A DNA stretch of 42,604 nt from Pseudodesulfovibrio sp. (lineage in GTDB: Bacteria > Desulfobacterota > Desulfovibrionia > Desulfovibrionales > Desulfovibrionaceae): NCBI GenBank assembly GCA_022712855.1, contig JAFLJT010000040.1:1-42604 (forward strand), read 5' to 3'. Each line of letters opens with the position of its first letter. Position 1 is the first letter of the stretch. The position numbers and the translations under genes were made by a program. Below the pieces are notes generated by a model. The model was not told where the DNA came from, made no database searches, and saw only the letters and a program-made list of their open reading frames with translations. This document shows positions 9,925 to 12,790 of the stretch, one piece after another.

Positions 9925-10734
9925 ATGAGCGGAAGAAATACAGACGCCCACGCGGCTGCCATGCAAAAACTTTTCAGTGTCATCGACACACTCATCGGCC
10001 CTGATGGTTGCCCATGGGACAAGGAACAGACCCCCCGCTCCATGTGCGATTATCTTGCCGAAGAAACCTTCGAGTTGATCGAAGGCATCCGCACTGGCGA
10101 CACCAAAGAAGCTATGGAAGAGCTGGGCGACGTTATGTTCATCCTGCAATTCATCGCCACTATGTATGAAAAAGAGGGTGCGTTCACCATGACCGACTCT
10201 CTCAAAAACAATGCGGCAAAGATGATCCGTCGCCATCCGCATGTGTTTGCAGACATGAATTTCGAGAGCAAGGAAGCCCTTCTGGACAATTGGGAAACCA
10301 CAAAAAAAGAAGAGAACAAAGGCACGAACAAAAAGCATGTCTTCGATTCCCTGCCCAAAGGTTTGCCGCCACTCCTCAAATCCTACCGCATCAATTCCAA
10401 GGCCGCTCGCAACAAGTTTACCTGGGAAACCGATGCAGATGTAGAAGTTCAACTCAAAGACGAATGGCAGGAATGGCAGGACGCCATGGCCTCGAAGGAT
10501 GCCGAGGCGTCTGAAGAAGAATTCGGTGATTACCTGTTCACTTTAGTCGAACTTGCCCGCCGCAAAGGCATCAAGGCCAACTCGGCCCTCGACTTCGCCA
10601 ACCAGAAATTCCTCAAACGATTCGGCCAGATGGAAGAATTGGCCGAACAACGTGACTTGGACTTCTCTGAACTAGACCTCGACGCGATGAATGCACTGTG
10701 GGATGAAGTAAAAGCTGACGGTCAGGCTCTCTAG
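9925..10734 (+). CDS. mazG: Nucleoside triphosphate pyrophosphohydrolase MazG
   Basis: 269-residue cytoplasmic enzyme that hydrolyses NTPs or dNTPs to monophosphate and pyrophosphate and so removes unwanted nucleotides. It is a full-length two-domain MazG. The first domain has GPDGCPWDKEQTP, LAEETFELIEGI and the metal motif EELGDVMFIL. The second has a weaker copy around DEWQEWQDAMASKDAEASEEEFGDYLFTLV (residues about 178-207). AAGGA lies 9 nt upstream. The stop codon overlaps the stop of the convergent binding protein gene (the shared bases are CTAG at 10731-10734), so no terminator separates the two genes. Confidence 0.95.
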   Translation: MSGRNTDAHAAAMQKLFSVIDTLIGPDGCPWDKEQTPRSMCDYLAEETFELIEGIRTGDTKEAMEELGDVMFILQFIATMYEKEGAFTMTDSLKNNAAKMIRRHPHVFADMNFESKEALLDNWETTKKEENKGTNKKHVFDSLPKGLPPLLKSYRINSKAARNKFTWETDADVEVQLKDEWQEWQDAMASKDAEASEEEFGDYLFTLVELARRKGIKANSALDFANQKFLKRFGQMEELAEQRDLDFSELDLDAMNALWDEVKADGQAL

Positions 10735-11606
10735 CGGAGTTCCTGCTGGAACCCCTTAGCCGCATTTCGAAGATTTTCCGACCAATTCTCGGCCAGTGAA
10801 TCCAGAGGCATGACGCGTGCGCCGATCTCTGCTGCGATAACGCGCGCACTTTTGTCAGAGAACTGCGGCTGTGCAAAGACAACTGCGATGCCCAGCTCCC
10901 GGCCATGCTCAATTATTTCCATCAATTCGCGAGGACTCGGTTCCTTGCCTTCCGACTCGATGGGAATCTGGCGTAAGCCGTACTGCTCGGCGAAATATCC
11001 CCACGATGGATGGAAGACCATGAATGACCGTCTGCCTTCCGGCACAACGGCCAGCGTTGCTTTGATTTCTCCATCCAAAGCTTCGATTTCACTCATAAAA
11101 ATATTCAGATTGGCTTCGTAGGCCGCTTTATTCTCGGGATCAAGCCGTACGAGTCCCGCACAGGTGTTCGCTGCGATAGTCTTCACCAGTTCTGGCGAGA
11201 GCCATATGTGTGGGTCAAGAACACCATCATCGTAGTCAGCATCATGCCCATCGTGATCGTGACTCTCCATGGGCTTCTTCGTAACACCCACGTCTGTTTG
11301 GATAATCACCAGATCCGAATTGGCCGCCTTAATGCGTGAAAGCCAACCGGTTTCAAATGGTACCCCGGGTGTGAAATAGCCACTGGCTTTGGTCAGTCCG
11401 ACCATCTGTCTGGGCGATGGTTCATAGGTAGCAGGGCTGGCGCCAGGCATGACCATGACGGAAGCATCGATCAAATCTCCACCAATTTTTTCAAGGAAAT
11501 ATTTCTGAGGCAGGACGCTGGCATACACCGAAAGTGTCCCAGCGTGTGCGGGGAAAGCTCCCCCCCACAGGACGAAGAATGTCAGAACAACAATCAGGCG
11601 ATGCAT
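10731..11606 (-). CDS. Zinc/manganese-type ABC transporter substrate-binding protein (ZnuA-like)
   Basis: 291-residue periplasmic metal-binding protein of the cluster A-I family. A signal peptide runs to about residue 22 (FPAHAG) with no lipobox. A short His/Asp-rich loop (SHDHDGHDADYDD, about 115-127) is typical of zinc members. Expected ligands are present at H133 (LDPHIWLSP), H199 (VFHPSWGYF) and D269 (MPLDSL). The first ligand histidine, usually in a GASPHTYEP-like motif, is alanine here (GASPATYEP, A59), so metal coordination would be incomplete or use the His-rich loop. No znuB or znuC is adjacent; two small membrane ORFs lie directly upstream on the same strand. It ends in a 4-nt overlap with mazG. 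Confidence 0.88.
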   Translation of the reverse strand: MHRLIVVLTFFVLWGGAFPAHAGTLSVYASVLPQKYFLEKIGGDLIDASVMVMPGASPATYEPSPRQMVGLTKASGYFTPGVPFETGWLSRIKAANSDLVIIQTDVGVTKKPMESHDHDGHDADYDDGVLDPHIWLSPELVKTIAANTCAGLVRLDPENKAAYEANLNIFMSEIEALDGEIKATLAVVPEGRRSFMVFHPSWGYFAEQYGLRQIPIESEGKEPSPRELMEIIEHGRELGIAVVFAQPQFSDKSARVIAAEIGARVMPLDSLAENWSENLRNAAKGFQQELR

Positions 11607-11621
11607 TAGAAATATACTCGA

Positions 11622-11786
11622 TTACGCGAAAAGGAATTCAAGAAGATAATAGACGGCGAAACCCGCGCCGGCTGCAACATACATGAACAGTCACGGCGCA
11701 CAGCTTTTTTTGAACTTCCATGCGAAAAGGCTGGCGGCGGCTCCGCCTGCAATAATTGCTGGGATAACTAATTTCAATTCAACCAT
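11622..11786 (-). CDS. Small two-helix membrane ORF with an in-frame UGA (Sec candidate or nonsense-broken gene)
   Basis: Reading from ATG 11786, 31 codons end at TGA (11693-11691). The same frame continues for 22 more codons to TAA at 11624-11622. Both halves look like one protein: helix one at residues 3-23 (LVIPAIIAGGAAASLF inside), a basic KFKKSCAP, the UGA at codon 32, then helix two (MYVAAGAGFAVYYLLEF inside). The context is C-A-P-UGA, a CxxU-like arrangement. About 25 nt after the UGA, CGGCG/CGCCG can form a stem with a 7-nt G/U-containing loop, loosely like a bacterial SECIS. It lies between the 74-residue ORF and the ZnuA-like gene, 15 nt before the latter. An AAGG about 8 nt upstream is a modest ribosome site. 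A plain nonsense mutation or two separate tiny ORFs are the alternatives. Confidence 0.4.
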
Positions 11787-11820
11787 TCAAGACCCTTGCA
11801 TAAAACAGTGCCCATGTCAC

Positions 11821-12045
11821 CTACGGCCACCCAGTTCTTCCACTGCCAAACACGACATGGAGTATGTAATAAGTCGCTACACCGATGCAGAAAACACTCA
11901 CTATCAGCTTTGGAATCGTCAAACGCTTGCTCGGTGTCACCACGCGCCAGCGTTGAAGCCACAACACAAGCCCTCCAACCACTATACTGAAGAGGATGGC
12001 TATGACAAAATACGGAATTTCAATCTGTATGCCCACTATTTCCAT
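11821..12045 (-). CDS. Small hypothetical membrane protein with two predicted helices
   Basis: 74-residue protein not recognised as any named family. It has two clear hydrophobic helices (about 10-30 and 47-66) joined by a basic loop rich in R, K and S/T (LQRWRVVTPSKRLTIPK), which places the loop in the cytoplasm. The start codon has only a weak G-rich ribosome site, and no upstream in-frame start exists before a stop. It is the first of three same-strand genes with short gaps (34 and 15 nt) ending in the ZnuA-like binding protein, so a role with that protein in metal uptake or sensing is possible but is inference only. Confidence 0.5.
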   Translation of the reverse strand: MEIVGIQIEIPYFVIAILFSIVVGGLVLWLQRWRVVTPSKRLTIPKLIVSVFCIGVATYYILHVVFGSGRTGWP

Positions 12046-12499: not shown

Positions 12500-12790
12500 A
12501 TGACCATGGCAATCGGAGGTCTTGGAGGCCCAGCATCATTCGATCAGCAGACGTTTGGTGCAGCTGTGGTTTCCGAGACTCTGGACATCATGAACAATTC
12601 TGGCAGCGGATCGAGTTTCGCCCCCGTGGACAAGGCGTCCGCAGAAGGCGCACTCGTTTCCAAGACATTGGAGTACATGAACTCCGGGTCCTCATCCGGT
12701 GACAAGACCGGCATGGCCCAAAGCTTTGACTTCCAAAAAGACGTCCTTGGCGCGTATGCCAAGGGCTCCATCGTCAACACCATGATCTGA
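12500..12790 (+). CDS. Small hypothetical protein made of three degenerate repeats
   Basis: 96-residue protein of unknown function. It has a strong GGAGG 7 nt before the ATG at 12500. Three units of about 25-30 residues can be aligned: around SFDQQTFGAAVVSETLDIMN (14-33), DKASAEGALVSKTLEYMN, and SFDFQKDVLGAYAKGSIVNTMI near the end. Each has a hydrophobic GA-x-V-x-S-x-TL-x-x-MN-like core, and Gly/Ser-rich linkers separate them (NNSGSGSS, NSGSSSGD). There is no signal peptide or helix long enough to cross the membrane. A terminator-like hairpin follows at 12821-12851. It lies next to the 77-residue protein and upstream of the P460 cytochrome gene. Confidence 0.65.
   Translation: MTMAIGGLGGPASFDQQTFGAAVVSETLDIMNNSGSGSSFAPVDKASAEGALVSKTLEYMNSGSSSGDKTGMAQSFDFQKDVLGAYAKGSIVNTMI

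Follow-up and report, generated by a model that had tools for sequence, protein, structure and literature searches.

Whether an in-frame UGA ends a small membrane protein or is read as selenocysteine (Sec) is the question raised by positions 11622-11786 of the window, by which is meant the whole analysed stretch of 42,604 nucleotides. The sequence-only reading that preceded this analysis described here a small two-helix ORF with an in-frame UGA and left the strand unstated. The ORF is confirmed and lies on the minus strand; a plus-strand reading of 11622-11786 was rejected, since no such ORF exists on that strand. The ATG is located at 11786, the UGA at 11693-11691, and the UAA at 11624-11622. 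Translation of the minus strand runs through MVELKLVIPAIIAGGAAASLFAWKFKKSCAP, which begins MVELKLVIP and places KKSCAP immediately before the UGA, and then through LFMYVAAGAGFAVYYLLEFLFA to the terminal stop. With UGA read as Sec, the product would be MVELKLVIPAIIAGGAAASLFAWKFKKSCAPULFMYVAAGAGFAVYYLLEFLFA, of 54 residues. The same translation bore out that C-A-P precedes the UGA at codon 32, giving a CxxU motif, and that a hydrophobic second segment continues in frame to the TAA. The features of the locus are as follows.

11622..11786, minus strand: ORF of the putative selenoprotein, 54 aa, ATG to TAA, Sec at codon 32; assigned from the frame and from conservation.

11691..11693, minus strand: in-frame UGA, predicted Sec, closing the C-x-P-U motif; assigned from the frame, its invariance, and the Cys found in genomes G930 and G931.

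11654..11670, minus strand: bSECIS-like hairpin core, CGGCG, loop CGGGTTT, CGCCG; assigned from folding and comparison within the genus.

11793..11797, minus strand: candidate Shine-Dalgarno-like AAGGG preceding the ATG, read from the letters.

11821..12045, minus strand: upstream partner, 74 aa, two hydrophobic segments, C-terminal GSGRTGWP, without Cys or Sec at the motif.

10731..11606, minus strand: ZnuA-type metal-binding protein, PF01297, 224.5 bits, starting 15 nt past the selenoprotein stop.

Judged from the comparisons described below, the minus-strand ORF at 11622-11786 almost certainly encodes a bacterial selenoprotein. The best explanation overall, held with high confidence, would be a two-helix membrane protein in which UGA is read as Sec and which carries a redox centre.

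Comparison of the locus with related genomes, a check proposed beforehand, revealed both a conserved TGA and conserved protein sequence after it. In stop-tolerant whole-genome searches, 32 of the 36 genomes of the genus, presumably Pseudodesulfovibrio, had TGA at this codon, and a count of the rows below E 1e-5 gave TGA-bearing matches in 67 of the 348 genomes of the order. Outside the order, 14 further carriers were present among 395 genomes sampled from the phylum. In a second order, that of G618, here called Desulfobulbales-type (group names are assigned by inference), 213 of 257 genomes matched at E up to 0.001; a single TGA was found in 211 of the 257, and no stop in two (G930 and G931). 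Among second-order genomes with a completeness of 90% or more and a contamination of 5% or less, 136 of 148 matched. The best rows of 148 second-order holders all contained one TGA, and the remaining 65 comprised 63 with one TGA and two with none. The UGA is invariant in the A1 alignment of 44 sequences. Moreover, GTDB contigs were scanned with a pattern consisting of C-x-P, then TGA, TGC or TGT, then Tyr and Gly, which matched at least 118 stretches. Among the matches listed, the codon was TGA in 80 of 80 loci, with TGC and TGT equally permitted; the pattern is blind to G930 and G931 because it demands C-x-P before the codon and Tyr and Gly after it. The matches listed came mainly from Desulfobulbaceae, Desulfocapsa, Desulfofustis, Desulforhopalus, Desulfogranum, and Pseudodesulfovibrio, and included single matches from MAGs labelled Myxococcota (L275) and Clostridiales (L211).

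Weaker matches were treated separately. G663, G090, and G131 were dropped as chance before the counts on 83 sequences. From the searches of the order and phylum, 15 weak matches (E 4e-5 to 0.01) were translated, the first five of which are without C-x-P-C; earlier weak matches with E up to 0.1 were examined in part. Of the other ten translated matches, five contain C-x-P-C (G304, G136, G069, G415, and the second place in G579); these were taken as chance, since a first helix is present in none of them. A pattern scan of genome contigs with a single protein gave 585 stretches, none of which was confirmed, and neither viral contigs (0 matches) nor plasmids contained a match.

These results bear directly on the alternative in which the UGA is a true stop, so that the locus would encode a one-helix peptide of 31 residues, followed by a separate or dead frame or truncated by a nonsense mutation. 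The sequence downstream of the UGA is conserved at the protein level in different families, with the codon itself still TGA, and in two genomes a Cys codon leaves a single open frame. Furthermore, no fixed Met occurs just after the UGA (at most 20 of 83 sequences at any of the first four codons, a count that took in Met codons only). Two separate ORFs were rejected on the conservation either side of the UGA. The simple alternative of the sequence-only reading, a recent nonsense mutation, is excluded because the same TGA is present in hundreds of genomes, to which a mutation would not be common. The probability of a true stop is therefore regarded as negligible, even with the folding result for the window given below on its side.

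Cys at the TGA position in a relative, also sought as a check, was found in two genomes. The sequence in G931 is MKTVLISLAAAVAAATAFFYFRNQEDDGCPACLAVNAAIAAALLAIYLLNRFF, in which residue 32 itself is Cys (E 2.8e-8), and G930 reads ...DEDGCPMCLALNAAIAAALLTLYILNRYLG, with Cys in the Sec column (E 3.0e-5). Both loci (L345 in G931, L346 in G930) belong to one genus (g347) and represent the only Cys orthologues found. By tblastn, the gene downstream of each Cys gene is the one that stands behind the Sec form of G488, G599, and G637 and behind the copies of G967 and G907; by our reading, the downstream gene common to all these loci would be mtnA. The Sec form of G599 carries the related motif C-P-A-U. 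Folding after the Cys codon of G930 and G931 gave nothing that resembles a SECIS stem with a GG loop. In the two orders, which contain 280 carriers (67 + 213), Cys occurs in 2, and in none of the 67 of the window's order. The family is a classical Sec/Cys pair in which Cys is very rare, and this pair in G930 and G931 strengthens the selenoprotein reading. A family with Sec only and no Cys form was rejected on the same two genomes. It can also be observed that Sec does not always occur with its partner Cys. In two extra copies of G260 (G260b and G260c, at L179 and L198) the UGA is kept and the motif Cys is lost, and the same applies to G967 (L347), which reads R-P-U and is outside the 83-sequence set. 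The Cys-Sec pair is thus not obligatory. Taken together, the rarity of Cys and the Sec copies without partner Cys suggest a membrane-surface chemistry for which selenium matters more than the Cys-Sec pair.

The sequence-only reading had placed a CGGCG/CGCCG stem with a 7-nt loop about 25 nt after the UGA. Stem and loop stand as described; by counting, the distance from the UGA is 20 nt to the stem and 25 nt to the loop. The criteria for a bSECIS in PMC13188914 (Fig. 2 legend) comprise a stem of 4-16 bp, a loop of 3-9 nt with G in its first two positions, a distance of 16-37 nt from the UGA, and an MFE of at most -7.5. The hairpin of the window agrees with these values, having a CGGGTTT loop, 5 bp, a distance of 25 nt, and an RNAfold energy of -9.2 kcal/mol over 45 nt, although the 21-nt core by itself reaches -7.0. 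Neither energy is better than chance, with z of +0.95 (45 nt) and -0.15 (core) against shuffles and +0.11 against synonymous shuffles, a result that favours a true stop when the window hairpin is considered alone. One sequence is therefore insufficient, and conservation decides. An Rfam search of the window returned nothing above the gathering scores.

Pairs were counted in 72 of the 83 sequences, separated into three groups (20, 23, and 29) because the position of the hairpin shifts; the 11 outside these groups are G140, G215, G063, G048, G129, G115, G162, G056, G005, G228, and G237. The stems were chosen after viewing the folds, a bias that favours the pairing percentage and bears less on the covariation tests by shuffling and sliding. 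Group A consists of 20 sequences from other families of the order; its stem of 8 bp closes a 3-nt loop and is paired in 94.4% of cells. Its covariation of 0.313, compared with 0.161 in shuffles, was reached in 0 of 500 and exceeds every slid version, and the number of pairs changed on both sides was 2, equalled by 366 of 500 shuffles. Group B (23 sequences, 14 from the second order and 9 from other genera of the window's family) has an 8-bp stem with a 4-nt loop and 77.2% pairing. Here covariation was 0.366 versus 0.222 (0 of 500 shuffles), with five both-side pair changes (12 of 500) and a number of pair types reached by 49 of 500; a single consensus fold over the whole of group B gave no structure. 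In the genus group (29 sequences, window included), the 5-bp stem is 95.9% paired and almost invariant, its covariation of 0.101 was reached by 57 of 500 shuffles, and the stem slid by -3 scores 0.137. The third bases in the genus are C in 93, 93, 90, and 97% at precisely the four codons of the stem, +7, +8, +11, and +12, compared with 79% or less at all other codons compared, the UGA itself apart. Folding against synonymous shuffles gave a negative z in 69 of 83 sequences, with a mean of -1.12. Covariation and the freezing of third bases indicate that the hairpin after the UGA, lying in the SECIS range as the earlier check required, is under selection in relatives.

The genome of the window possesses all four of selA, selB, selC, and selD above the cut-offs, with scores of 609.8, 389.8, 77.6, and 334.3 bits, respectively. 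Its selD (G000:C197:2844-3773, L319) has an in-frame TGA of its own, as expected of a Sec-type SelD. In the order, tRNA-Sec is present in 65 of 67 holders of the gene compared with 223 of 281 non-holders (Fisher one-sided p 1e-4, kinship ignored). Presence was defined as E below 1e-12, read from the table; the tool cut-off gives 301 of 348 genomes. The two holders without tRNA-Sec, G024 (82% complete) and G056 (67% complete), are incomplete drafts, and by hand count the gene is found in 0 of the 27 genomes of the order that are at least 90% complete and without tRNA-Sec. Another explanation is selenium-free readthrough of the UGA by near-cognate Trp or other suppression. Each of the 20 group A sequences has CT directly after the UGA, as is known for readthrough in eukaryotes, but the covariation of the hairpin within the SECIS range, the association with selC, and the orthologues seen without TGA, which have Cys and not Trp, make such readthrough very improbable. 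Of the outcomes named in the sequence-only reading as contrary to Sec, namely homologues that end at codon 31, missing sel genes, and a sense codon other than Cys or Sec, all three were absent.

With Sec as the preferred reading of the UGA, the surroundings of the gene were considered. The adjoining gene had been taken for a zinc-type binding protein, which agrees with its ZnuA-type assignment (PF01297). The proposed link to metal uptake is unsupported: ZnuA adjoins the ORF only in the window and G026, 2 of the 48 loci compared, and in 2 of 86 (both in the genus) when every locus was searched. A role as an accessory of zinc or other metal uptake was rejected for want of conserved linkage with uptake genes. 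Loci of the genus mostly adjoin mazG (cluster c0, 28 loci). A small conserved protein of 96 aa, encoded at 12500-12790 on the plus strand of the window, recurs close to the locus in many of the genus genomes (cluster c6, 17 loci). Neighbours in other families, named by reading their sequences, look like housekeeping genes (TypA, Der, DnaX, MtnA). A shared functional neighbour was sought across families and none was found, and no conserved neighbourhood points to a function. The neighbourhoods being uninformative, function must be argued from the protein itself.

In the 83 Sec sequences, Cys occupies position -3 in 81, Pro -1 in 77, Tyr +4 in 78, Gly +8 in 76, and Gly +10 in 82. An AlphaFold model of low confidence (mean pLDDT 65.5, pTM 0.32), of which the secondary structure alone was used, places helix 1 at residues 4-24 and helix 2 at residues 32-53, with Sec as the first residue of helix 2. 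The ten residues before Sec contain 2.8 K/R and 0.3 D/E per sequence; the C-terminus, with 1.0 K/R and 0.18 D/E, is also slightly positive, and the N-terminus has 0.4 K/R and 0.6 D/E. Since the loop before the motif is rich in Lys and Arg, the motif probably faces the cytoplasm by the positive-inside rule. We infer Sec insertion, membrane insertion, topology, and a redox role, which may be pictured as follows. SelB and tRNA-Sec, guided by the hairpin 25 nt downstream, would read UGA 32 as Sec, and ribosomes would go on past the UGA into the second helix. The product would be a membrane hairpin of 54 residues with C-x-P-Sec opening helix 2. In this membrane-anchored redox pair, Sec would act as the attacking selenolate and the Cys at -3 would close a selenosulfide, with oxidised or persulfidated thiols, peroxides, and the quinone pool as candidate substrates. 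Given a selenoprotein, the chance of a redox role is estimated as roughly even.

The main rival to a redox centre is a selenoprotein that binds or passes a soft metal or metalloid (Hg, As, Cu, Zn) by means of its Cys-Sec pair, in the manner of MerF, a two-helix mercury transporter. Such a role suits the two predicted helices with the Cys/Sec pair at the presumed cytoplasmic end and the ZnuA gene that adjoins the ORF in two genomes; several Sec-bearing metal transporters are also listed in the selenoprotein catalogue (PMC13188914). Nevertheless, no Mer family is found among the matches of 44 members to NCBIfam (E up to 1) or Pfam (E up to 0.1), no PDB match falls under E 0.3, and neighbours in other families are housekeeping-like, with ZnuA at 2 of 48 loci. 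Binding of a soft metal is accordingly considered doubtful. Alternatively, the protein might be a small subunit with a structural or regulatory part in a membrane complex, its Sec serving as a sensor and not as a catalyst; in Pseudodesulfovibrio, the selenoprotein may then pair with the Cys-free paralogue upstream. This partner occurs in 21 of the 36 genomes of the genus, each time directly upstream of the selenoprotein ORF, and is absent from the other 312 genomes of the order (E up to 0.001). Its profile also weakly matches selenoprotein ORFs (E 1e-6 to 1e-3), which suggests duplication, and it is probably a paralogue of the selenoprotein. A subunit role is in keeping with the very small size of the protein, with a partner that is solely adjacent (21 of 21 genomes), and with the G-x-G after the motif (Gly +8 in 76 and +10 in 82 of 83), which suits helix packing. 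It is quite unlikely, however: the other genera of the order yielded no such partner, and none of the neighbours codes for a common membrane complex.

With the redox pair retained as the preferred reading, several known systems can be compared. The eukaryotic SelK and SelS are very small membrane selenoproteins with one helix, Sec near the C-terminus, and a eukaryotic SECIS. The product of the ORF would likewise be a very small membrane selenoprotein with Sec outside the helix core, a likeness of anatomy. The C-G-P-C of thioredoxin sits at a helix N-cap, the same placing as is proposed for C-x-P-Sec. Thioredoxin C-G-P-C or C-x-x-C and the present Cys-x-Pro-(Sec/Cys) at a helix N-terminus are alike as motifs alone, whereas the helix here is probably membrane-spanning and the low-confidence model contains two helices and no strand, and hence no thioredoxin fold. 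The Sec-containing putative mercuric transport protein (PF02411, C/SxxU) and MerF share small size, membrane location, and a soft-metal-type Cys/Sec motif with the present family, which differs in having neither a Mer model match nor a mer-type neighbourhood. Bacterial CxxU selenoproteins (GrdA, AhpD-like, SelW-like; PMC13188914, Table 1) are alike in the UGA with a bSECIS-type hairpin and in the Sec machinery, and also in the Cys three residues before Sec and in the Sec/Cys pair (here in two genomes). In contrast, the present family has 54 aa, two predicted membrane helices, no convincing family model, and a very rare Cys form.

No Pfam or NCBIfam family covers the protein; scattered weak matches reached a best E of 0.0007, to a sorting-signal model that was matched by 6 of 44 members at E up to 1. 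A PDB profile search had a best E of 0.32, to cystathionine beta-synthase, and this was taken as chance. Compared by description, nothing recognisably the same occurs in the available part of a catalogue of 119 prokaryotic selenoprotein families (PMC13188914, a 2026 review), and the NCBIfam accessions that this part gives for its hypothetical families are not among the matches of the 44 members. The available parts of PMC1914089 and PMC8318568 contain nothing like the 54-aa family either. CxPU was not found among the literature matches listed, in which coverage is thin for subscription papers and none for bioRxiv preprints. The selenoprotein family seems to have been missed by catalogues, an earlier description being possible. 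Most discovery of bacterial selenoproteins relies on Sec/Cys pairs, and with Cys in 2 of 280 holders the family lies at the edge of what such methods can detect. According to the deep-Sep paper (PMC12013277), its filter may discard selenoproteins without Cys homologues, and the row there for Salidesulfovibrio onnuriiensis IOR2 was read as 10 known and 0 new selenoprotein genes. It is likely that these membrane-hairpin selenoproteins form a new family with a nearly obligatory need for selenium, near-universal in one sulfur-cycling order and missed by discovery methods because the annotated frame is cut off at 31 codons and Cys homologues hardly occur. This membrane protein of 54 residues is present in most genomes of the Desulfobulbales-type order, and its natural Sec, Sec-without-Cys, and Cys versions would constitute a compact system for what selenium does beyond sulfur.

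Some copies depart from the common form. The Clostridiales-labelled MAG carries at L211:5802-5855 a 38-residue version, MKEILKSFLTHCPP-U-IMIYLLLGAGFGIYFLVKNFLLR, in which the first helix is missing. It has a good Shine-Dalgarno, and its CCUGCU-GGG-AGCAGG hairpin is no better than shuffles. The copy at L101 in G005, one of the 32 TGA-bearing genomes of the genus, looks broken: the conserved Trp is replaced by a second TGA, and a start codon is missing where one normally lies. The copy at L348 (G907) also looks broken, having in-frame stops ahead of the motif.
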